A stretch of DNA of 64,000 bases from NCBI GenBank assembly GCA_017935505.1, contig JAGBHM010000032.1, positions 1-64,000 on the forward strand, read 5' to 3'. The notes under the pieces were generated by a model. That model saw only the letters and a program-made list of their open reading frames with translations. It was not told the DNA's origin and ran no database searches. This document shows, in pieces, positions 4,158 to 39,250 of the stretch (position 1 is the stretch's first letter; every line of letters starts with the position of its first letter). The DNA is from Bacteroidales bacterium. Its GTDB lineage: Bacteria > Bacteroidota > Bacteroidia > Bacteroidales > UBA932. Made by a program: the position numbers and the translations under genes.

Positions 4158-4190
4158 GCGGGACAAACAAATTGATATTGTTTATCCCGC
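4158..4190 (-). terminator. Hairpin after the DUF2795 gene
   Basis: A 13-position stem with one mismatch (arms 4158-4170 and 4178-4190) closes a 7-nt loop 34 bp downstream of the DUF2795 stop codon. The T-run that follows on the minus strand is broken (TTGTGTTTTA), so termination is likely but not certain. Confidence 0.55.
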
Positions 4191-4223
4191 CGATATTCAG
4201 ATACTTAATCTAAGTTCAAGCTT

Positions 4224-4445
4224 CTAATACTCATCTTCGTTGAAGAAAAAGTCTTCTTTACTTGGATAATCTGGCCAAATCTCTTCGATGCTGTCGTAGA
4301 TTTCGCCGTCATCCTCAAGGTCATTCAAATTCTCAATTACCTCCAGTGGGGCTCCAGAACGGGTAGCATAGTCGATAAGCTCCTCTTTTGTTGCAGGCCA
4401 TGGTGCATCTTCGAGTTTAGATGCAAGTTCAAGTGTCCAATACAT
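4224..4445 (-). CDS. DUF2795 family small acidic protein
   Basis: A 73-residue, strongly acidic protein without signal peptide or membrane segment. The WPATKEELIDYA motif followed by AP.EVIENLNDL and an acidic tail matches the DUF2795 family, known mostly from Bacteroidota and actinobacteria as small helical proteins of unknown function. It is monocistronic, between hairpins, with its own -7 box about 55 bp upstream. That promoter core is identical over 20 nt to the one before the [FeFe] hydrogenase gene, which hints at shared control. No biochemical function can be assigned. Confidence 0.75.
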   Translation of the reverse strand: MYWTLELASKLEDAPWPATKEELIDYATRSGAPLEVIENLNDLEDDGEIYDSIEEIWPDYPSKEDFFFNEDEY

Positions 4446-5115: not shown

Positions 5116-5832
5116 TCAATTATTTATTGTATCACTCTCTATTTTGCCGTCGCGCAGCCGGATAATCCGCTTGGCATACATGGCAATATCCTCTTCATGA
5201 GTAACAACAATAACAGTGTTGCCATTGTTGTGTATCTGTTCAAATAAATTCATTATATCAACAGATGTTTTTGTATCAAGGTTGCCGGTGGGCTCATCTG
5301 CCAATATTATTGACGGGTTGTTTATAAGAGCTCTTGCTATGGCAACCCTTTGTCTTTGTCCGCCCGAAAGTTCTGATGGTCTGTGAGATATGCGCTCTCC
5401 CAAGCCCACAGTTTCCAATGCCTTGCGGGCCTTCTCCTCCCTCTCTTCTTTGGAGAATCCTGCATATATGAGCGGAAGTGCGGTGTTTTCAAGGGCTGTA
5501 TATCTCGGCAGAAGGTTGAATGACTGGAATACAAAACCTATCTCCTTGTTCCTCACTTCTGCCAGCTGTGAATCCTCCATTTTGCTCACATCGGTGCCAT
5601 TGAGTATGTAGCACCCTTCTGTTGGAGTGTCGAGGCATCCCAATATGTTCATCATTGTAGATTTACCGGATCCCGACGGTCCCATTATGGCTACATATTC
5701 ATTCTCCCTTATTACAAGGTCTGCGCCATTGAGGGCATTGACCTGCTGGTTGCCCATCTTGTAGATCTTTTTGAGTCCGCTTATGCGGATAATCTCTCTT
5801 CTTTGTTTGCTTTCCTCCTCCATAATCTCCAT
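5116..5832 (-). CDS. ABC transporter ATP-binding protein, LolD/MacB type
   Basis: A 238-residue single ABC ATPase domain. It has Walker [11 protein letters not shown]-loop region [18 protein letters not shown], signature [15 protein letters not shown] and Walker [13 protein letters not shown]. The [21 protein letters not shown] segment and GNLD are typical of the LolD/MacB/FtsE branch, which powers lipoprotein release or mechanotransmission rather than channel-type import. No permease gene is adjacent, so the partner must be encoded elsewhere. A second in-frame ATG lies three codons into the chosen start and is equally possible. The gene follows mqnB by 20 bp. Confidence 0.85.
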
Positions 5833-26669: not shown

Positions 26670-26702
26670 AAAAGGTATCTCTTAGTTGTAGAGATACCTT
26701 TT
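26670..26702. terminator. Bidirectional terminator between convergent genes
   Basis: Thirteen paired bases (26670-26682 with 26690-26702) close a 7-nt loop. The stem ends are A-rich and T-rich, so each strand gets a T-run. The loop contains the TAA stop codon of the minus-strand acyl-CoA synthetase gene. Confidence 0.88.
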
Positions 26703-28577
26703 AATTTTACTTGTGGCTGTCTTCTGGAAGGCCTCATGCTGAATATATATTTCGGTAATGCGTGAGAATTTGTTTACACGGGCATTTACATATTCAGAAA
26801 CCTCTTTTTTCAGCGAGTCGAAAGAACTGCTCAGACTCTCTTTCAGCTCCTCTTTCTTGGAATGATATGAGGCAAAAGCATCCTCTCTCTTCTCTGCATA
26901 TGCCTTGTACAACTCGCGTCGTTTCTGGTCATATGCTTTTGCAAACTCGCTCTTCTTTAGGGCCAACTCCTTCTTCTTTAATTCATAAATGGCTGATATT
27001 TCAGCTTTTTTGCTGGAATAGGCCTCAATAAGCTCTGCTTTTTTTGCTTCATATTCCTGAATGAGTTCGCTCTTTTTCTCAAGGTAGGCTATGTAGAGCT
27101 CCTCTCTCTTCTTGTTGTAGGTCTCCAATTTATCGGGATTAGGATGTATCCTGGCAATCAGGTTACCTTTATGGGTTGTTACAAGAGATTCAACAACAGA
27201 GGCGTGCGAGTTGATTACAGTCTCAATCTCCTCCGGGTAGATGTTCTCTCCGCTTGGTCCGAGAATCATATTTTTGAGTCGGCCTCTGATTGAAAGCCAG
27301 CCCTTCTCATCAATATATCCAAGATCTTGTGTCCTGAACCAGCCATCCACTGTAAAGGCCTCAGCTGTGGCTTTAGGATTCTTGTAGTATCCCATCATTA
27401 TATTGTCGCCCTTTGCAACAATCTCGCCTTCGCCTGTCTCCGGATTTACATTGTCTATTCTCAATTGTACTCCCGGAACAGCAGGTCCTGTAGTCTGCCA
27501 TTTGACCATGCTTGGAATTGCTCCTGCAAGCAGTGGACAGCACTCTGTAAGGCCATAACCTATTGCATAAGGGAATTTTGCCTCATAGAGGAAGCGTTCC
27601 ACTGTTCCGTCGAGCTTTGCACCTCCTATACCAAAGAAACGTACATTTCCTCCAAACATCTCCTTCATCTGTTTTCCTACAATTTTATGCACAAGTTTTC
27701 TGCCCAGTACTGTCTTGTACATGGTTGCAGTGATCTTCTTTGCATTGATCTTTGGCAGGATTGAGTTCTTGTATATTTTCTCGATAATGAGCGGAACTAC
27801 CAGGATAGTTGTCGGTTTTACAACTTTGAATGCCTGGAGCAGAGCTGAAGGGGTAGGGGCTTTGTCGAGATAATATACTGAGGCTCCGCTGGAGAATGGA
27901 AGCAGAAGCGAAAGGCTGTTTTCCAATGTATGCGACAGTGGTAAAATTGAAAGCCATACGTCCCATTCAAAACTTGGGCGCAACTGCATTGCTGATTTAA
28001 GATGTGAGCAGAGGTTCTTGTGGCTCAGCATTACACCTTTTGAATTTCCTGTAGTACCTGAAGTATATATAATTGTAGCAAGCTCCTCCTCTTTTGGAGT
28101 GAATTCCGGTGCCAGGAGGGCCTCTTTAAGTTCAGATGCAGGCTTATTGCATGCACTTTCCCCTTTCAATACAGTGAAATCATCAATTTCAATGATTGTC
28201 TGCAGTTTCTCCTTTATTGCTCCCGACAGCTTCCTGGAGAGCTTTTTCGATACAAATATCGCTTTGGCTTCCGAGTGCTCCAATATATTTTCAATCTCTG
28301 TCTCCGAAAAATCGGGCAGCAGGGGAACTGCAATTCTGTTGTATGCTGCACAACTGAAAAAGGCTACACCCCAGTTGGGCATATTTTGGGAAAGGATACC
28401 TACTTTATCTCCCGGCTGGATGTTATTGCTCAGTAAAAGTTCTGATATCTCCTCGGTTTTATACCCGAATTGCTCATAAGTGTAAAAATCGCCACCTATT
28501 GTGCAGAGATATTTGTACTTGCTGAAAGCCTTTGTTTTACTGATAAATAGCTCCTTTATTGTTTTAAAATTCATCAT
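26682..28577 (-). CDS. Long-chain acyl-CoA synthetase with hendecad-repeat insert
   Basis: A 631-residue AMP-forming synthetase that activates fatty acids to acyl-CoA. Visible motifs are the P-loop IIYTSGTTGNSKGVMLSH (near 170), GYGLTECCP, the DGWFRTQDLGYID hinge motif, GRLKNMIL and the lid motif KTATSKIKRYL at the extreme C-terminus, containing the candidate catalytic Lys. Between hinge and lid, residues 487-581 form tandem 11-residue units beginning with Tyr and containing KK.EL (YEAKKAELIEA, YSSKKAEISAI and so on), interrupted once by a 7-residue unit. This adds about 90 residues of amphipathic helix to a normal enzyme. The stop codon sits in a terminator loop. Confidence 0.88.
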   Translation of the reverse strand: MMNFKTIKELFISKTKAFSKYKYLCTIGGDFYTYEQFGYKTEEISELLLSNNIQPGDKVGILSQNMPNWGVAFFSCAAYNRIAVPLLPDFSETEIENILEHSEAKAIFVSKKLSRKLSGAIKEKLQTIIEIDDFTVLKGESACNKPASELKEALLAPEFTPKEEELATIIYTSGTTGNSKGVMLSHKNLCSHLKSAMQLRPSFEWDVWLSILPLSHTLENSLSLLLPFSSGASVYYLDKAPTPSALLQAFKVVKPTTILVVPLIIEKIYKNSILPKINAKKITATMYKTVLGRKLVHKIVGKQMKEMFGGNVRFFGIGGAKLDGTVERFLYEAKFPYAIGYGLTECCPLLAGAIPSMVKWQTTGPAVPGVQLRIDNVNPETGEGEIVAKGDNIMMGYYKNPKATAEAFTVDGWFRTQDLGYIDEKGWLSIRGRLKNMILGPSGENIYPEEIETVINSHASVVESLVTTHKGNLIARIHPNPDKLETYNKKREELYIAYLEKKSELIQEYEAKKAELIEAYSSKKAEISAIYELKKKELALKKSEFAKAYDQKRRELYKAYAEKREDAFASYHSKKEELKESLSSSFDSLKKEVSEYVNARVNKFSRITEIYIQHEAFQKTATSKIKRYLYN

Positions 28578-31280: not shown

Positions 31281-31520
31281 ATTTTAAACTTTGTTTACAA
31301 TCACGCTGCGCCTCGGCATATCTTCAAGCAAGCTTGAGTTCTGCACTCGGCTTGCAGTTTATTTTAAACTTCGTTTACAATCACGCTGCGCCTCGGCATA
31401 TCTTCAAGCAGGCTTGAGTTCTGCTCTCGGCTTGCAGTTTATTTTAAACCTCGTTTACAATCACGCTGCGCCTCGGCATATCTTCAAGCAGGCTTGAGCT
31501 TTGCACTCGGCTTGCAGTTT
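31281..31520. repeat. Three tandem 80-bp intergenic repeats
   Basis: Units at 31281-31360, 31361-31440 and 31441-31520 are contiguous and differ pairwise at only a few positions. Each holds an interrupted palindrome (TCAAGC, 2 nt, GCTTGA) and a second potential stem (CTGCA, 7 nt, TGCAG, imperfect in two units). The array fills the gap between the asd stop codon, which it overlaps by two bases, and the parE promoter. An 80-bp period is not a multiple of three, so it is not coding. No spacers are present, so it is not CRISPR. Confidence 0.95.
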
Positions 31521-32589
31521 AGTTTATGAATCCTTTCTGGAGGAGCACTTCTGCAATCTGTACGGCATTGGTTGCGGCACCTTTTCTGAGGTTGTCGGCC
31601 ACACACCAGAGGTTAAGGCCGTTCTCAATGCTCGGATCTCTCCTTATGCGGCCTACAAATACCTCATCCCTGCCTTCAGAGTAGAGTGGCATAGGATATG
31701 GGAGTGCATTCGGATCTTTGCAGCCTATTGCCGGGTTCTGGTTCTCTCCGTCGGGTTTGATATTGTCCAGAACAACTACACCCGGTGTTGCAGAGAGAAT
31801 TTTTACAGCATCTTTTTCCTCAAATGACCTCTCAAATTCCAGATTTATCGACTCTGCATGGCCGCCTAATACAGGAATCCTTATGGCAGTAGGTGAAACT
31901 TTGATATTTTCGTCCCTCATGATCTTGTGGGTCTCATTTACCATCTTCATCTCCTCTTTGGTATAGCCGTTCTCCAGGAATTTGTCGATGTGCGGCAGAA
32001 GGTTGAGATCTATCTGGTAAGGATAGGCACACGGATACTCTCCGCCAATTATGTTGTGTTCAACGCCCTGCCACCTGCTTCTCTCTTCAACCAGCTGGTC
32101 TACAGCCTTTTGTCCTGTGCCGGTGATGCATTGGTAAGTTGATACTACAATTCTCTTTATCTTGTACTCTTTGTGGAGGTCTGCAATTGCAACGAGCATC
32201 TGTATTGTAGAACAGTTGGGATTTGCGATAATCATATCATTTTCCTCAACCACATCCGCATTGATCTCCGGAATGACCAGTTTTTTTGAAGGGTCCATTC
32301 TCCAACATGCGGAGTTGTCCACCACTCTGCAGCCAGCCTCTGCAAACATAGGTGCATATTTGGCTGAAGCATCGCTTCCAGCAGAGAAAATTGCCAGAAC
32401 AGGTTTCATCTCCACAGCCTCTTCGGGAGTAACAACCTCATATTCTTTGCCTTTGAAGGCGATTTTCTTTCCTTTGGATTTTGCCGAGGCAACCGGTATC
32501 AGTTCGCTTACCGGAAAATTCCTCTCTTCCAACACTTTCAACATTCTTGTGCCAACCAGACCTGTGGCACCCACTACTGCTACTTTCAT
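31519..32589 (-). CDS. asd: Aspartate-semialdehyde dehydrogenase
   Basis: A 356-residue NADP-dependent enzyme reducing aspartyl phosphate to aspartate semialdehyde. The N-terminal GATGLVG dinucleotide loop, the active-site NPNCSTIQ (catalytic Cys), the CITGTGQKAV substrate segment and GGHAESI with the catalytic His are present. I chose the ATG at 32587-32589 (MKVAVVGATG), since the 3-codon extension upstream starts with TTG. It is the last gene of the metY-metX-thrA-asd operon, 13 bp after thrA. The first of the 80-bp repeats begins inside its stop codon, and no classical terminator is visible. Confidence 0.95.
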   Translation of the reverse strand: MKVAVVGATGLVGTRMLKVLEERNFPVSELIPVASAKSKGKKIAFKGKEYEVVTPEEAVEMKPVLAIFSAGSDASAKYAPMFAEAGCRVVDNSACWRMDPSKKLVIPEINADVVEENDMIIANPNCSTIQMLVAIADLHKEYKIKRIVVSTYQCITGTGQKAVDQLVEERSRWQGVEHNIIGGEYPCAYPYQIDLNLLPHIDKFLENGYTKEEMKMVNETHKIMRDENIKVSPTAIRIPVLGGHAESINLEFERSFEEKDAVKILSATPGVVVLDNIKPDGENQNPAIGCKDPNALPYPMPLYSEGRDEVFVGRIRRDPSIENGLNLWCVADNLRKGAATNAVQIAEVLLQKGFIN

Positions 32590-32602
32590 ATATGTCAAAA
32601 TT

Positions 32603-35074
32603 TTATTTCAAAATATCATTCAACAATCCGCTGGCTGTTTGCCTTGCTCCTGCACCGGCGCCTTTGATTACTACCCCCTGAGGATAATATTCTGTGGTAA
32701 TTACCATGGCATTGTCGCTTCCCTCGAGAGAGTAGAACGGATGCGAAGAGTCTACCTCTGTAAGGGCAATCCTGTACTCTGGAGTTTCGCCACTTTTGTC
32801 GAGAATTGCCATGAAACGCAACTTCTTGCCATTTGATGCCGCATTCTCATAGGCCGCCTTCAATACCGGTTCCTCTGCCTCCAGTGCATTGTAGAAATAC
32901 TCCTGGTCATCAGCAAATGTTGCTCCCTGAGGTGCAAGTACAGAATCCGGCACAAATCCTTTGAAATTAATCTGTGATGATTCCAGCTCTTCTCCAGCCT
33001 CGCGTGCCGATATGATAAATTTTCTCAACACATCTGTACCCGACAGATCAAGTCTAGGATCCGGCTCAGTATATCCCAGCTCCTTGGCCTCTTTCACCAG
33101 CTGGGCAAAGCTCTTCTGTGCATTGTATGTGCTGAACAGGTAGTTGAGAGTTCCACTTACAATACCCTCTATCTTGAGGATCTTGTCACCGCTGTTCATA
33201 ATCTGCCTTATCATGGCAAGCACCGGCATGGCTGCACACACAGTTGTTTCATATCTGTAGGACACACCCTCTTCCAATGCACAGCTGAACAGCTCTTTGT
33301 ATGAATCGTAATTCAGTGAGTTTGCAATCTTGTTGCATGCAACAACCGAGATCTTGTTTCTGAACAGATCGGTGTACAAGCTTGCAATTCCTTTATTTGC
33401 AGTGCAATCCACAAATATCGCATCACTCAGTTTCAGCTCCGACAAAGCATCGATATATTCATTTGCAACATTAGACTCGCCGCTGCCCAATTGGGCAAGC
33501 ATCTGCTGCTGGTCACCAAGCTGTATGCCATTCTTATTTATAACGTAGTTCTTGCTGTTGCACAATCCGCAAACAACCAGTTCTTTGCCAAGTGTTCTTG
33601 CCAGATACTCCTTCTTTTCTCTGATTATTTCAACCAAAGCTTTTGATACAGTTCCGTAACCGGCAATGAAGAGGTTGATCCTTTTGCAGTTTCCTCCGAA
33701 GAACTCTTTATGGATTGCCCTGATGGCCTCGTGGACATGCTCTGTCTGTACAACAGCCGAAACATTCTTCTCAGAAGAGCCCTGTGCTATGGCGCGGATA
33801 TTTATTCCTTCGCGTCCCAATGCCTCAAACATCTTTCCGCTGGCTCCCGACTGGTTTTTCATGTCATCGCCAACCAGTGAAATGATAGAAAATCCCTTCT
33901 CCACGCGCAACGGATCAACTTTGCCTAATGATATCTCATAGGCGAAAAGCTCATCTGTGGCCTTTTTTGCTTTGTCGGCATCGGCTTCATCAATTGCTAT
34001 GCACATGGTGTGTACAGAAGAGGCCTGGGTGATGAGGATGATGTTTACATTATTTTTTGTAAGAGTGTCAAAGAGTCTGCTTGAATAGCCTGGGATACCC
34101 ACCATGCCGCTTCCCTCCATGGAGAGGAGTGCAATTTTGTTAGAGCTCGAAATTCCCTTTATCTTGCTATGGCCCTCAGGCGGGTTGCGCTCGATGAGTG
34201 TACCAGGATCCAATGGCTCAAAAGTGTTTTTTACATAAATTGGAATACCTTGTTTCACAACCGGTTGTATCGTTGGAGGATATACCACCTTTGCTCCGAA
34301 GTGCGAAAGTTCAAGAGCCTCTTTATATGATATGTTACGTATTGGATGAGCCTGTGGTACAACTCGTGGATCGGCAGTCATCATTCCGCATACATCTGTC
34401 CAGATCTCAAGGATTCTGGCCTGGGCTCCAACAGCAATCAGTGATGCTGTGTAATCAGAACCGCCTCTTCCCAATGTGGTTGTGCGACCCTTCTCATCCA
34501 TGGCAATGAAACCTGGCATAATGTAGAGCTTGTGGTTGCTCTGCTCAAAGAACTCTTTGATTTTCCAGTTTGTAAGATCTTGTATAACAATGTTTTTACC
34601 ATTTACAGGTTCTGTTGTTACAAGTTCCCGGGAGTCTTTCCAGATATGGCTTATGTTTAATGATTTGAGTTTTGCGCTTATAATTTTTGTGGAGAGAATT
34701 TCTCCAAAGCTTACAATATGGTCGAGGCTCAAATTACTCAGCTCCTTGAGAAGAAATACACCTTTGCAGATCTCTCTCAGTTTGTTGAAGAGCTCTTTGC
34801 ACTCCTGTTTTATTGATGTATAATCTTCTGCAGGGATAAGCTCCTCTATGAGTGATATGTGTCTCAATTCAAGCTGGTCTATGCGGACAGTATAATTTTC
34901 ATTCTGGCTGAGAGCCTCCTTGCCTATAGCAATAAGTTCATCTGTACATCCGCTTATGGCAGATGATACCACAACTGTCTTATCTTTCTTGAGGGCCTCT
35001 TTTACAATGGCTATTACTTTGTTTATATTTTTGGCATTGGCAACTGAGCTGCCGCCAAATTTCATTACTTGCAT
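32603..35074 (-). CDS. thrA: Bifunctional aspartokinase/homoserine dehydrogenase
   Basis: An 823-residue fusion. Aspartokinase occupies residues 1-300 (KFGGSSVANAKN at the start, GRGGSDYTA near 202). Tandem ACT domains for allosteric control lie at about 310-460. Homoserine dehydrogenase begins near 466 with INLFIAGYGTVSKAL and includes GTLNYLFS and GYTEPDPRLDLSGTDVLRK, and GATFADDQEYFYN is near the C-terminus. It controls entry of aspartate into the threonine/methionine pathway and also makes homoserine from the semialdehyde produced by Asd. Length matches ThrA/MetL. The start overlaps the metX end by 10 bp, so translation is coupled. Confidence 0.96.
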   Translation of the reverse strand: MQVMKFGGSSVANAKNINKVIAIVKEALKKDKTVVVSSAISGCTDELIAIGKEALSQNENYTVRIDQLELRHISLIEELIPAEDYTSIKQECKELFNKLREICKGVFLLKELSNLSLDHIVSFGEILSTKIISAKLKSLNISHIWKDSRELVTTEPVNGKNIVIQDLTNWKIKEFFEQSNHKLYIMPGFIAMDEKGRTTTLGRGGSDYTASLIAVGAQARILEIWTDVCGMMTADPRVVPQAHPIRNISYKEALELSHFGAKVVYPPTIQPVVKQGIPIYVKNTFEPLDPGTLIERNPPEGHSKIKGISSSNKIALLSMEGSGMVGIPGYSSRLFDTLTKNNVNIILITQASSVHTMCIAIDEADADKAKKATDELFAYEISLGKVDPLRVEKGFSIISLVGDDMKNQSGASGKMFEALGREGINIRAIAQGSSEKNVSAVVQTEHVHEAIRAIHKEFFGGNCKRINLFIAGYGTVSKALVEIIREKKEYLARTLGKELVVCGLCNSKNYVINKNGIQLGDQQQMLAQLGSGESNVANEYIDALSELKLSDAIFVDCTANKGIASLYTDLFRNKISVVACNKIANSLNYDSYKELFSCALEEGVSYRYETTVCAAMPVLAMIRQIMNSGDKILKIEGIVSGTLNYLFSTYNAQKSFAQLVKEAKELGYTEPDPRLDLSGTDVLRKFIISAREAGEELESSQINFKGFVPDSVLAPQGATFADDQEYFYNALEAEEPVLKAAYENAASNGKKLRFMAILDKSGETPEYRIALTEVDSSHPFYSLEGSDNAMVITTEYYPQGVVIKGAGAGARQTASGLLNDILK

Positions 35075-36117
35075 ATAATCACTTCTTTAAAAATGTCTGT
35101 AATCTGTTTCCATTCCAGCAGAAATCCGTCGTGGCCGAATAGGGAGGTGATCTCCCTGTACTGGGCTCCCGGAATATGCTCTGCCATAAATTGCTGTTCG
35201 CAGCAAGGGAAGAGTCCGTCGCTGTCTATTCCAACGCAGATGCAGTTTGCCTTTACCTGTTTCAATGCAGCCTCCACTCCTCCGCGTTTGCGTCCGATAT
35301 TATGGCTGTCGGTAATATATACCATAGAGTTGTAGGAATAGGCATCAAACCTGTCTACCAGCTTTTTTCCCTGGTATTGCTGATATGAGCCAACTCTTGT
35401 GCACCACATAGTATCTTCATCTGTTTCCGGTTGGGTTGTGAGATAGCCGGTATAGCTGCGATATGATATGAGGGCGAGAGCGCGTGCTGCGGCAAGTCCT
35501 CTCTTTCCACCCTTTGCAACTGCCTTTCCATCTGCCAGATCATATTCCTGAGCTTCAAATGTAGGGTCTGCATGGAGAGCCATCCTCATTGTTTCATTGA
35601 ATGCTCCGAGCCATGGGGTAACTCTGGCACCGCATGCCAGCAGAATCATATTTTTTATTCTGCTGCTGCTCATTATGCTCCATTCCAATGCCTGGAATCC
35701 TCCTACAGAACCACCAACCAGCAGTTCAATCTCCTCAATGCCAAGCTCTTTTCTGAGCAGTTCGTGACACGCGGCAATATCCCTTACCGTTGTTTTTGGG
35801 AATCCCAGCATGTATGGTTTTCCGCTATGCGGATTGATGGAGAGCGGGTTGGTGCTACCATAGCATGAACCGAGAATGTTTGCGCAGACAATTGTAAATT
35901 TGCGCGGGTCAAGATATTTGCCCTCGCCAACCATTGTATCCCACCATTCGCATGGGTTTGAATTGGCAGTGAGGGCATGTGTAATCCATACAACTTTTTT
36001 GGGCTGGGCCTCTTTGCCGTACTCTTTTGATATATGGTAGCAGATCTCTATACCGGAGAGTGTTTCGCCGCTCTCCAGAATAAGCTCTGCGTCATATCTG
36101 AAAAATCGTTTTTCCAT
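35065..36117 (-). CDS. metX: Homoserine O-acetyltransferase
   Basis: A 350-residue alpha/beta-hydrolase-fold enzyme transferring acetyl from acetyl-CoA to homoserine. The nucleophile elbow is GGSVGGFQALEW (usually GGSMGG), the oxyanion region HALTANSNPCEWW is clear, and the late Asp (GIDSDGLFP) and His (FGHDGFLLE) complete the triad. The ANILGSCYGSTNPLSINP block is diagnostic of MetX. I chose the ATG at 36115-36117 (MEKRFFRYDAELILESGE), where family homology begins; a longer reading frame would extend into metY. It lies 31 bp after the metY stop and overlaps thrA by 10 bp. Confidence 0.94.
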   Translation of the reverse strand: MEKRFFRYDAELILESGETLSGIEICYHISKEYGKEAQPKKVVWITHALTANSNPCEWWDTMVGEGKYLDPRKFTIVCANILGSCYGSTNPLSINPHSGKPYMLGFPKTTVRDIAACHELLRKELGIEEIELLVGGSVGGFQALEWSIMSSSRIKNMILLACGARVTPWLGAFNETMRMALHADPTFEAQEYDLADGKAVAKGGKRGLAAARALALISYRSYTGYLTTQPETDEDTMWCTRVGSYQQYQGKKLVDRFDAYSYNSMVYITDSHNIGRKRGGVEAALKQVKANCICVGIDSDGLFPCCEQQFMAEHIPGAQYREITSLFGHDGFLLEWKQITDIFKEVIICK

Positions 36118-36148
36118 AATTTTTGTCGGATTGATGAGCTTGCAACAA

Positions 36149-37429
36149 TTATCTGATTGATGCAAGAGCCTGTTCAAAATCGGCAATTATATCATCGATG
36201 TTCTCAATACCTATACATAATCTCAATGTTCCAGGTTTTATTCCTACATTAAGCAGCTCCTGGTCTGAAAGCTGTGCATGGGTAGTTGTTGCAGGGTGGG
36301 CGACAAGCGACTTGTTGTCACCAAGATTTGCAAGGAGGGTAAATATTTTCAATTTGTCCACAACCTTGCCTGTCTCCTCCCTCGAAGCCTTGAGGTCTAC
36401 TGTAATTATGCCTCCAAATCCGTTTCTGAGATATTTTTTTGCATTTTCATGGCTAGGGTGGCTCTCCAGACCGGGGTAGTTGACATGCTCAACGGCCGGA
36501 TGTTTCTCAAACCATTTTGCAAGAGCCATGGCATTGTCGCATACTCTCTGGCAACGGAGTGAGAGGGTCTCTACACCTGTAAGCAGCAGAAATGCATTGA
36601 AAGGGCTCAGACAGCACCCATAATCCCTCAAACCCTCACTTCTTGCCCTCACAGCAAATGCTGTATTGCCGAAAACTTTGTGGAAGCTCAACCCTTTATA
36701 TGCCGCTGCCGGCTGGGTAAATTGGGGGAAACGTCCGCTCGACCAGTCGAAATTTCCTGCATCAACAACAATTCCTGCAATTGAATTTCCATGTCCTCCA
36801 ATCCATTTAGTTGCAGAGTGTGTAATTATATTTGCGCCCCAATCGGCAGGAGCACACAAATATCCTCCGCATCCTACGGTATTATCCACAATAAGAGGCA
36901 GTTTGTACTTGGCACATACCTCTTTAAGCATGTCAAAATCTGGAACCGACAGATCTGAATTGGCAATAGTCTCTACATAAATTGCTTTTGTATTGTCATC
37001 AACAAGTGATTCAATCTCCTCTCTGTCTGTGCATTTGCAGAATTTTACATTTATGCCAAGTCTTGGAAGGGTAACCTTGAACTGGTTGTAGGTGCCTCCA
37101 TATAGTGATATTGAACTTATAATATTGTCTCCTGCTTCACAAAGATTCTGTATTGCAAGGAACTGTGCGCTCATTCCAGAAGAGGTGGCAACTGCCGCTA
37201 CAGAATTTTCCAGAGCTGCAATTCTCTTTTCAAGAACATCTGCGGTAGGGTTGCCCAGGCGTGAATAGATGTTTCCTTCTTCTTCGAGAGCAAAGAGCCT
37301 CCTTCCATGCTCTATATCTTTGAAGGCATATGCTGAAGTCTGGTAAATGGGAGTGGTGCATGCACCTGTTGTGGGGTCCGGAGTATGTCCGGCATGAACC
37401 TGTAGGGTCTCAAATTTATATTGTGACAT
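36149..37429 (-). CDS. metY: O-acetylhomoserine sulfhydrylase (aminocarboxypropyltransferase)
   Basis: A 426-residue PLP enzyme of the Cys/Met metabolism family that forms homocysteine from O-acetylhomoserine and sulfide. The start ETLQVHAGHTPDPTTGACTT and the active-site lysine segment HSATKWIGGHGNSIAG are characteristic, as are SGMSAQFLA and TLRLCIGIENIDDIIADFEQ. Length favours MetY over the roughly 390-residue cystathionine gamma-synthases. It is the first structural gene of a metY-metX-thrA-asd operon. About 260 nt of leader RNA with a Met-rich ORF precede it. Confidence 0.93.
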   Translation of the reverse strand: MSQYKFETLQVHAGHTPDPTTGACTTPIYQTSAYAFKDIEHGRRLFALEEEGNIYSRLGNPTADVLEKRIAALENSVAAVATSSGMSAQFLAIQNLCEAGDNIISSISLYGGTYNQFKVTLPRLGINVKFCKCTDREEIESLVDDNTKAIYVETIANSDLSVPDFDMLKEVCAKYKLPLIVDNTVGCGGYLCAPADWGANIITHSATKWIGGHGNSIAGIVVDAGNFDWSSGRFPQFTQPAAAYKGLSFHKVFGNTAFAVRARSEGLRDYGCCLSPFNAFLLLTGVETLSLRCQRVCDNAMALAKWFEKHPAVEHVNYPGLESHPSHENAKKYLRNGFGGIITVDLKASREETGKVVDKLKIFTLLANLGDNKSLVAHPATTTHAQLSDQELLNVGIKPGTLRLCIGIENIDDIIADFEQALASIR

Positions 37430-37481
37430 GATAATTTCTTTTAAATGGTTAATGCGACAGACCTTCTAAATCTGCCTGAAC

Positions 37482-37507
37482 AAAAGAGAGGCACTATCTC
37501 CTTCTCT
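37482..37507 (-). terminator. Candidate attenuator terminator before metY
   Basis: The minus strand folds AGAGA-GG with CC-TCTCT around one bulged A and an 8-nt loop, followed by TTTTG. It lies 53 bp before the metY ATG. The stem is weaker and the T-run shorter than in the leu attenuator. The sequence AGGGAG about 70 nt upstream could pair with the CTCTCT arm, with one G-U pair, as an alternative fold. Confidence 0.45.
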
Positions 37508-37547
37508 GAAACAATATTATATCGGATTTTACAGTTGGTTAGGGTTG

Positions 37548-37562
37548 ATGTTCCTGGAACAT
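37548..37562. repeat. Perfect 15-bp palindrome in the metY leader
   Basis: ATGTTCC T GGAACAT: seven bases mirrored exactly around a central base, in the leader between the Met-rich ORF and the terminator-like hairpin. It could be an operator for a dimeric repressor or a 6-bp RNA hairpin with a 3-nt loop. Confidence 0.6.
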
Positions 37563-37585
37563 GACTCCCTCAAGAATATTACACA

Positions 37586-37600
37586 GCATCTTAGCGATGC
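37586..37600 (-). repeat. Hairpin at the leader ORF stop codon
   Basis: On the minus strand GCATC and GATGC pair around GCTAA, with the leader peptide stop codon in the loop. A ribosome at the stop would melt this stem; one stalled on earlier Met codons would leave it free. Confidence 0.5.
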
Positions 37601-37692
37601 ATTCGCATTGATGAATCAAACATGCAATACATCATGCCTGCCATCTGGACAGACATCGCAATAGAAGAGTAGTTATGTATCGCTATGTTCAT
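37591..37692 (-). CDS. Candidate methionine leader peptide
   Basis: A 33-codon reading frame (ATG at 37690-37692, TAA at 37591-37593) between a consensus promoter and metY. Eight of its 33 residues are Met, at positions 1, 13, 17, 20, 21, 24, 29 and 31; the core reads MAGMMYCMF. It begins roughly 15-20 nt after the predicted transcription start and has no resemblance to a folded protein. The placement ahead of a methionine operon, the Met density and the downstream hairpin plus T-run fit a ribosome-mediated attenuator. The leu leader at 54527-54604 has the same layout. Translation is not proven. Confidence 0.6.
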   Translation of the reverse strand: MNIAIHNYSSIAMSVQMAGMMYCMFDSSMRMHR

Positions 37693-37715
37693 CAGCTATA
37701 TCGGATATATGGCTA

Positions 37716-37746
37716 CAAAATTATGGAATAAAATCCAAACATCAAA
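37716..37746 (-). promoter_or_regulatory. Promoter of the met operon
   Basis: On the minus strand TTTG (37743-37746) is followed after exactly 19 nt by TAATTTTG (37716-37723), a full match to the Bacteroidota primary sigma consensus. It lies between the hydrogenase terminator and the leader peptide ATG, predicting an RNA leader of about 280 nt before metY. Confidence 0.82.
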
Positions 37747-37760
37747 ATTATATGTATAAA

Positions 37761-37799
37761 GAAAATAAAACAGCCCGATAGTTGAATTTATCAGGCTGT
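37761..37799 (-). terminator. Terminator after the [FeFe] hydrogenase gene
   Basis: Minus-strand stem of 11 pairs (37789-37799 with 37770-37780, one of them U-G), 8-nt loop, then TTTTATTTTC. It starts 9 bp after the hydrogenase stop codon and separates it from the met promoter. Confidence 0.88.
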
Positions 37800-37807
37800 C
37801 GTGGTTA

Positions 37808-39250
37808 TTATTTCATCTTCTGAAGTTCGGTATTCATCTGTTTAACAGAATTCACTTTGTCGTTGTAGATACAAGGTCCGGTAACACATCCGCTCTCACA
37901 TGCCATAACTTCAATGAATGGTGACGGTGCCTTGCCGGTTTTTGCGTAGAGTCTCAACAGACCAATGTTTTTCTTGTCTAGATTTGCAACGAGTGTAGCA
38001 TTCAGGTTTGCTTGTGCAAGGTAAGCTTTCACTGCGCCTGTAACACCACCTGTCTGTGCAAATCCGTGAGCCTCCATCACAGATTTGAACTTCATCTGGT
38101 AAGGCTCTACTGTATTTATGTCGATATCCATTCCTGAAAGGATAGAACCCATCTCCTCAAAAGTCATGGCATAGTCCACAAACTCAGGATATTTCCTTGC
38201 CTCTTTCCTTTTGGCGATACATGGACCGATAAATACAGTAAGTGCTTCTGGATCCTCTTTCTTAACTATCTCACCTGTATAGTACATAGGTGATTTTGTT
38301 GTAGAGATGTATTTCTTGATATCAGGAATATGCTTCTCTGAAAGTTCTATGTAAGAAGGACAACAGCTTGTAGTCATGAATGGAGCACCCTCCTCAAGTC
38401 TCTCCTTAAACTCCTCAGATTCGATTCTTGTTGTCTCCATTGCACCTTGGGCAACCTCAATCACATCAGAAAAACCGACAGCCTTGAGAGCTCCGTAGAT
38501 ATTCTCGATAGGGGCATTGAATTGTGCAAGAATTGCAGGGGCAACCATTGCAACCACCTTCTTGCCCTCTTTTATCTTCTGCAGGATGTCAAATACCTGT
38601 GAAATTTCAAATATGGCACCAAATGGACATGCATTCAGACATTTTCCGCAATAGATACACTTGCTCTCATCGATATGCTCAATTCCGTACTCATCCTTGC
38701 TTATTGCCTTTACAGGGCATGCATCTTCACATGGTACAGGAATATATACAATAGCATGGTATGGACAGCTTTTGTGGCATTTTCCACAACTGATGCACAA
38801 ATCGTGGTCAATCTCTGCCTGTCCTTTCTTATTGAAATGTATAGCATTCTTGGGACAGTTCATATAACAACTGCGGGCTACACAGCCGCGGCAAAGGTTG
38901 GTAACCTCGTAATTTGTCTGCACGCAAGAAGAGCAGGCCTCATCTATTACGCAAAGAATATTCTCCTTGAGATTCTTGTTGCGTGTTACAGCCTGTTGTG
39001 CATAATAAGAGAGAGGAGCCAGCTCATCTTTCTCATCATTCATATCAAAACCCAGCAGAGGTAGTGATTTGTATTTCCATACTGCGCGCTCCTTGTGAAT
39101 GCAGCAACGTCCCATGACTTTGGATTTTCTGGGACTCAATTCTATAGGCAGACGATCGATCTTGTCTGTAAGGGAGTCCTCTTTCCAGAGTTTAACCAAT
39201 GTGGCCAACAGTTTGTGGCGCACAATCATTACATTATTAGTAAATGCCAT
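37808..39250 (-). CDS. Monomeric [FeFe] hydrogenase, probable group B
   Basis: A 480-residue iron-sulfur enzyme. Residues about 100-140 carry extra Cys motifs (CSSC, CRGCVARSCYMNCP), then two ferredoxin-type clusters, CISCGKCHKSCPYHA and CIYCGKCLNACPFGA. The C-terminal H-cluster domain has modified forms of the three signatures: TTSCCPSY, GPCIAKRKEA and EVMACESGCVTGPC. These supply the four Cys that hold the H-cluster, so activity toward H2 is plausible. The truncated architecture without NADH- or flavin-binding modules fits the poorly characterised group B enzymes of gut anaerobes. Maturases HydEFG and an electron partner are not in the window. It is monocistronic. Confidence 0.85.
   Translation of the reverse strand: MAFTNNVMIVRHKLLATLVKLWKEDSLTDKIDRLPIELSPRKSKVMGRCCIHKERAVWKYKSLPLLGFDMNDEKDELAPLSYYAQQAVTRNKNLKENILCVIDEACSSCVQTNYEVTNLCRGCVARSCYMNCPKNAIHFNKKGQAEIDHDLCISCGKCHKSCPYHAIVYIPVPCEDACPVKAISKDEYGIEHIDESKCIYCGKCLNACPFGAIFEISQVFDILQKIKEGKKVVAMVAPAILAQFNAPIENIYGALKAVGFSDVIEVAQGAMETTRIESEEFKERLEEGAPFMTTSCCPSYIELSEKHIPDIKKYISTTKSPMYYTGEIVKKEDPEALTVFIGPCIAKRKEARKYPEFVDYAMTFEEMGSILSGMDIDINTVEPYQMKFKSVMEAHGFAQTGGVTGAVKAYLAQANLNATLVANLDKKNIGLLRLYAKTGKAPSPFIEVMACESGCVTGPCIYNDKVNSVKQMNTELQKMK

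Follow-up and report, generated by a model that had tools for sequence, protein, structure and literature searches.

Ribosome-mediated transcription attenuation is known from the trp, his, thr, ilv, phe and leu leaders, and in E. coli trpL the leader ORF runs into a hairpin whose loop holds the stop codon. Methionine is usually sensed via SAM riboswitches, T-boxes or repressors, and AUG also initiates most proteins. According to the available excerpt of a survey of Actinobacteria, methionine operons are S-box controlled in other species, with no conserved RNA structure in the survey's own set, while Mycobacterium and its relatives have cysteine leader peptides with runs of Cys codons by the stop codon and no conserved terminator hairpin (PMC1262725). 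Clues to leader peptides ahead of amino-acid operons have been reported in Flavobacterium psychrophilum (PMC9723704), and short ORFs within 5′ UTRs in Bacteroides thetaiotaomicron (PMC7366714). Both cases share the phylum and the general idea with the locus described below, but the excerpted text of these papers names neither a methionine leader nor a conserved hairpin (PMC9723704, PMC7366714). Likewise, the excerpts of two further papers mention no methionine leader (PMC2965389, PMC4833913). In the open-licence literature no methionine leader-peptide attenuator was among the matches listed, and the survey that Lopatovskaya and co-workers published in 2010 may hold cases; within the literature searched, methionine would be a new amino acid for leader-peptide regulators.

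The window, as the whole 64,000-nt stretch of Bacteroidales DNA that was analysed is called here, carries on its minus strand the genes metY-metX-thrA-asd behind a leader that is probably a ribosome-mediated attenuator, predicted to consist of a Met leader peptide and a conserved hairpin. The leader lies between metY and a terminator-like hairpin of the gene upstream, which encodes an [FeFe] hydrogenase (TIGR04105, 523.4 bits against a cut-off of 450). In the direction of transcription the features are:

37769 to 37800, minus strand: terminator-like hairpin 3′ of the [FeFe] hydrogenase gene, a 12-pair stem with a T-rich tail, setting the hydrogenase gene apart from the leader.
37716 to 37746, minus strand: predicted promoter of Bacteroidota type, TTTG (37746-37743), 19 nt, TAATTTTG (37723-37716), from the sequence.
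37591 to 37692, minus strand: predicted leader ORF of 33 codons, eight of them Met, MNIAIHNYSSIAMSVQMAGMMYCMFDSSMRMHR, from the sequence.
37586 to 37608, minus strand: core ATGCGAATGCATCGCTAAGATGC, the codons M-R-M-H-R-stop overlaid on a hairpin, from the strict family pattern and the arms and loops of 50 leaders.
37548 to 37562, no strand assigned: 15-bp palindrome ATGTTCCAGGAACAT, forming an RNA hairpin in the window.
About 37482 to 37507, minus strand: weak terminator-like hairpin with a TTTTG tail, -6.5 kcal/mol, about 53 bp before metY.
37456 to 37476, minus strand: hairpin GGCAGATTT-AGA-AGGTCTGTC close before metY, -8.9 kcal/mol, equalled by 4 of 200 mononucleotide shuffles.
36149 to 37429, minus strand: metY, O-acetylhomoserine sulfhydrylase (TIGR01326, 606.9 bits against a cut-off of 495.1), ATG at 37429.
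35065 to 36117, minus strand: metX, homoserine O-acetyltransferase (best match TIGR01392, 300.7 bits, under the equivalog cut-off of 500).
32603 to 35074, minus strand: thrA, bifunctional aspartate kinase/homoserine dehydrogenase (NF006959, 878.2 bits against a cut-off of 726).
31519 to 32598, minus strand: asd, aspartate-semialdehyde dehydrogenase (NF011456, 415.7 bits against 223; TIGR01296, 407.8 against 324.2).

The start of metX was taken at the ATG at 36117, the profile scan having covered 35065-36120. The few closest named MetY proteins come from Bacteroidales and Rikenellaceae MAGs, and for the MetX of a relative the named neighbours belong to Bacteroidales and Candidatus Cryptobacteroides MAGs. 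The TTTG and TAnnTTTG boxes, which we take to be the Bacteroidota promoter consensus, predict the 5′ end of the leader transcript, and the leader ORF starts 23 nt past the -7 box. Its stop codon, TAA, sits in the loop of the 5-bp core hairpin at 37600-37586 (GCATC 37600-37596, loop GCTAA 37595-37591, GATGC 37590-37586). The promoter, the Met-rich ORF, the stop-in-loop hairpin, the palindrome and the weak T-run hairpin listed in the first-pass annotation are all present on the minus strand; the metY-proximal hairpin at 37456-37476 was absent from it. Stems ending in CTGTCG like this last one, at a different spacing, were seen by eye in L082, L083 and L146, three out of five further genus members with the core.

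Like the attenuators of the trp and his type, the leader has a short ORF with end-product codons, here at the predicted 5′ end and rich in them, and this ORF closes in a hairpin that has the stop codon as part of its loop. The amino acid is different, being methionine (plus cysteine in the sister genus g19, in Balneola and in others), as are a core hairpin that is near-invariant and the lack, in most leaders including that of the window, of a strong intrinsic terminator. In the proposed mechanism, scarcity of charged Met-tRNA would halt the ribosome at Met codons of the leader, the stall would alter which downstream RNA hairpins form, and the altered hairpins would likely let expression continue into metY. 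As such, the signal would be charged elongator Met-tRNA and the output premature transcription termination. It is hardly credible that the ORF is there by chance or is a non-regulatory small gene. Short ORFs are indeed common, with 745 of 20-60 codons in the window, but among these the leader ORF ranks first for internal Met codons (seven, the runner-up having five), only 1 of 5000 dinucleotide shuffles of the leader region yields a short ORF with at least seven, and the arrangement is conserved at the same place in 14 genera.

In the window's family, a strict 23-nt form of the core, ATGCGAATGCATCG-loop-GATGC, was found in 31 of 149 genomes as 32 copies (two in one genome, and one perfect copy in the window's own), with no match to a reversed control pattern among those listed for the same 149 genomes. 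Judged by coordinates and reading, 31 of the 32 copies precede metY or metX and the remaining one lies at a contig end. Five copies before metX were read, and in all three loci that reach the next gene this encodes an aspartate kinase. For comparison, a metY relative at E <= 1e-150 is present in 48 of the 149 genomes. Within the window's genus, six of 12 sampled genomes have the element, before metY in every case; the remaining six lack it and also gave no metY or metX match at the thresholds used. At one locus (L146, genome G003) the metY frame behind the leader appears to be split into 222 and 199 codons in different frames; G003 gave no metY or metX match at the thresholds used, and the gene is possibly decaying or the assembly in error.

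The first-pass annotation had proposed that the phylum at large may sense charged Met-tRNA through a leader of this kind. Related genera of the family do share it, but the core form stops there: a somewhat looser core pattern was found in three of the six family genomes of an order-wide sample and in none of the 387 others, and a peptide regex applied to 80 metY loci (the best 80 of 508) gave three matches (L030, L048 and L067), none of them MRMHR. Spread of the core beyond the family was rejected on this evidence.

Leaders were compared across 114 upstream regions (50 of metY, 64 of metX) from 103 genomes and 21 genera, in which loci within one genus are related and the counts hence non-independent. 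By a peptide-frame criterion the core is present in 50 regions, each from a different genome and together spanning 14 genera, and absent from 64, some of which perhaps do not precede the first gene of an operon. The set omits a core before metX in G009 (L136), where the start pattern missed the gene, and G137, which was too short; G059 (L250) was used only in the locus reading and the stall calculation, and the metX matches left out mostly lie directly behind metY by coordinates, with a few others (G085, G121). That the Met-rich frame would recur in relatives was borne out: within 20 codons upstream of the core the 50 leaders of the 14 genera have 100 ATGs in the MRMHR frame, some of them leader start codons, against 3 and 2 in the other frames, and since the leaders were picked by the peptide regex the frame is partly given by construction downstream and is independent upstream. 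Codon -2 is ATG in 36 of the 50. Of 49 relatives (L101 being excluded for too little upstream sequence), 47 have a TAnnTTTG box no more than 160 nt before the core, compared with 17 on the antisense strand and 12.6% of dinucleotide shuffles; a full TTTG-N17-23-TAnnTTTG promoter occurs in 22, compared with 5 on the antisense strand and 0.7% of shuffles. An in-frame start at most 35 nt from the box, with the frame open to the core, is found in 45 of 50 leaders as against 1 and 4 in the shifted frames. The frame-specific ATG excess and the in-frame starts argue that the leader frame is translated. The leaders vary in length and sequence, having in common the Met codons (SMSMSM, MMMMM, MAGMVRTMCMMSM) and the end. 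The AUG a single nucleotide past the stop (UAAGAUG) was considered as the restart point of a second ORF and rejected, the open length from it being no longer than that of other frames (median 20 codons against 25 and 18.5, in 28 out-of-frame leaders).

The arms of the core, ATGCATC and GATGCAT, pair at five or more of the seven positions in 50 of 50 leaders, taking the best register at short range; two g17 leaders are register-shifted, and in the window's leader (L001) the script chose another register, five in-register pairs being plain in the sequence. Two leaders have changes on both arms, CAAC/GTTG in g11 and CGTA/TATG in g20, and further leaders preserve the pairs through G-U. The compensated change in g11 turns His into Gln in the peptide with the pairing intact, indicating that there the pairing and not the residue is maintained. 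The loop form GNTAA places the stop codon inside the loop, while in g10 and g5 the loop length brings the ATG of the 3′ arm into frame and the ORF continues; overall the loop has 4-9 nt (g17 aside). The near-invariant core letters exceed what pairing or Met codons alone would need.

Such invariance, together with pairing compensated at the expense of the peptide in g11, is what a small RNA aptamer or a protein-binding hairpin would display, the reading frame then being a by-product. This is unlikely, given that an untranslated RNA would not be expected to have the ATG excess in one frame or, in 45 of 50 leaders, a start in that frame behind the promoter box, that the loop length is variable and that Rfam gave no match over the window's leader or in 20 relatives. 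In the window (36500-38500, E up to 5) the Rfam scan returned four weak snoRNA/TUC338 matches, none overlapping 37586-37746, and 20 core-bearing loci scanned at gathering thresholds returned zero. A known riboswitch was accordingly rejected for the window and these relatives, in agreement with the first-pass annotation, which had recognised none over the leader. The peptide might alternatively act as a nascent chain, with the MRMHR end arresting the ribosome and sensing methionine or S-adenosylmethionine inside it, and conservation of the peptide across genera was seen at the C-terminal MxMRMHR only. Its residues vary with the RNA pairing kept, however (MRMQR, MRMRR, MRMRI, KRMHR, MRMHL, MQMHR), and the number of upstream Met codons varies as it would for a codon sensor, making an arrest peptide very unlikely.

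The sensing half of a ribosome-mediated attenuator is well supported: what is observed is a reading frame whose Met codons are conserved in frame, a promoter box just upstream of it, a hairpin that is likewise conserved, and a position before metY or metX that recurs. The first-pass proposal of leader-peptide attenuation holds for this half and falls short at the window's output, where the terminator is weak and no switch could be computed. At -6.5 kcal/mol the terminator-like hairpin is equalled by 3 of 30 shuffles, as weak as had been claimed; a longer stretch around it is matched in folding by 43 of 200 mononucleotide shuffles, and the 287-nt leader, taken as a whole, does not outdo its shuffles in folding (z -0.20), 79 of 200 equalling it. 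In the stall calculation, pairing of the terminator arm in the window was 0.50-0.55 with a stalled ribosome, 0.48 with the ribosome at the stop and 0.61 without a ribosome. With a simulated stall barely shifting this pairing, an intrinsic switch in the window was rejected and, as no stall-dependent antiterminator was seen, its leader is called attenuator-like and is not filed as a member of the class. The palindrome, which the first-pass annotation had offered as a further control element, was by eye absent from the five other core-bearing members of the genus; it was rejected as a conserved element and is probably incidental.

A different picture of the output emerges from leaders of another build. 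In the sister genus g19 the leaders are mostly Met/Cys-rich (e.g. MAMYMCCMC), without the core, and six of eight metY regions have strong terminators of -14.5 to -19.4 kcal/mol; near its end the leader carries GCCGG, complementary to the 5′ arm of the terminator. These leaders and those of Balneola resemble the classical attenuators in having a terminator and a competing antiterminator. With the ribosome stalled and its leading edge set at +12 nt, the calculated antiterminator P in six g19 leaders (five genomes, L102 and L155 sharing one) was 0.97-1.0 at 17 of 17 Met codons tested, all beyond the first six residues, as against 0.01-0.36 with the ribosome at the stop, while the latest 8 of 25 Cys codons tested gave low values of 0.01-0.24; for L159 the start was chosen inside a longer open frame. 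As modelled, g19 thus shows a complete computed switch in six of six terminator-bearing metY leaders. In five of five near-identical Balneola-type leaders the antiterminator value was 0.68-0.76 stalled against 0.23.

Seven of the 50 core leaders, from the five genera g1, g11, g14, g17 and g21, have a terminator-like hairpin with an energy of -8 kcal/mol or lower, and such a hairpin is also present in L250 (g23). Antiterminator pairing increases on stalling, at some or all of the Met codons tested, in four of eight core-type leaders: L163 (0.74-0.76 against 0.30), L219 (0.21-0.34 against 0.0), L093 (0.52-0.79 against 0.50) and L250 (0.08-0.49 against 0.0). No stall-dependent change was computed for L083, L146 and L092. 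By calculation, then, the termination step comes out well in g19 and Balneola and incompletely in some of the core-bearing relatives, and fails to appear for the window.

It is a lesser but real possibility that the leader peptide senses as proposed and that the output, exerted through the stalled ribosome or the core hairpin, is Rho-dependent termination, RNA polymerase pausing or the translation of metY. The 43 of 50 core leaders below the terminator threshold speak for such an output, as does the lack of a clear computed switch in the window. In nine g21 leaders the stretch 3′ of the core has a C content of 0.24-0.32 and a G content of 0.07-0.14, a composition that, being C-rich and G-poor like a Rho site, would suit Rho. 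The g10 leaders (e.g. L090, L091, L109) have two extra consensus hairpins 3′ of the core, GGGTC..GATCC and GGGC..GCCC, followed by an A-rich and not a T-rich stretch. The seven terminator-bearing core leaders and L250 point the other way, as does the stall-dependent gain in antiterminator pairing in L163, L219, L093 and L250. Transcription attenuation is the likeliest output, the window's own switch being conjectural, and in the window the output is possibly Rho-dependent or translational. The terminator-poor leaders of the core type resemble the cysteine leaders of Mycobacterium, which differ in amino acid, phylum and genes and for which the excerpt of the survey reports no core hairpin (PMC1262725).

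The SAM-I riboswitch (S box, RF00162) governs methionine genes in other bacteria, and it adjoins some Met/Cys-rich metY leaders outside the family. Core leaders, by contrast, are without a match to it in the window and in 20 relatives, and their signal would be charged tRNA and not SAM. In a wider set, made up of 78 metY loci of other Bacteroidota and of bacteria outside that phylum (from the best 80 of 508, with L018 and L040 dropped for short upstream sequence), a Met/Cys-dense frame lies within 400 nt upstream of metY in 11, five of them Balneola-type, against 0 of 78 on the antisense strand and 0 of 78 inside metY. In Thermonema (L002) the Met/Cys leader RFRMMQMCCCCM lies behind a SAM-I riboswitch (5626-5734) upstream of metY, as does the leader LMCCMCCRIY in Pedobacter (L011; riboswitch at 4173-4285). 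The SAM-I scan covered two of the five Balneola-type leaders and both were positive, with the riboswitch in tandem with the Met/Cys leader before metY (L054, 4108-4232; L065, 5788-5911). Breznakibacter has the Met/Cys-dense frame FMMMGMMCSMMMSC upstream of metY. Two Xanthomonadales/Lysobacteraceae MAGs (L033, L035) have the Cys/Met-rich frames CMCCRMCMCAPARG and CMCRCMCMCAPARG about 150-290 nt before metY, and a further MAG (L027) has two serial Met/Cys-rich short frames, MHVMRMCMCCCMMCS and ..GCCCMHMMCMCC.., less than 400 nt before metY.

Taken together with the core, these leaders allow a wider reading that is plausible but tentative. The core, ATGCGAATGCATC-loop-GATGCAT, may be an undescribed dual-code element, in which one stretch of 23-25 nt would supply both the Met codons that sense charged elongator Met-tRNA and the hairpin that switches, in most lineages with no intrinsic terminator. 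It may also be one of several independent Met or Met/Cys leader regulators of metY in Bacteroidota, Balneolota and Xanthomonadales, some of them in series with SAM-I such that one operon would read both charged tRNA and SAM. If true, a leader that counts Met codons makes charged elongator Met-tRNA the signal, and MxMRMHR together with the hairpin becomes a search signature for such control in uncultured Bacteroidales. Where Met/Cys leaders stand beside SAM-I in cultured genera, sensing of tRNA as against SAM is directly testable on one operon.

Elsewhere in the window's own genome no Ile/Val-rich leader was found by the criterion used before one ilvB-like gene (L253; three places with TPP enzymes were found). 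A His-rich leader ORF, MNFISQNHLHHHHHRQSALRADFLLLHVK (HLHHHHHR), lies just upstream of hisG (L252, G000:C16); this classical-looking histidine leader suggests that the window's organism makes use of leader-peptide control. In another part of the window (26682-28577, minus strand) the ORF list includes a 631-aa protein that by eye is AMP-binding-like and carries, close to the C-terminus, a long insert rich in Lys and Glu that looks like a coiled coil.
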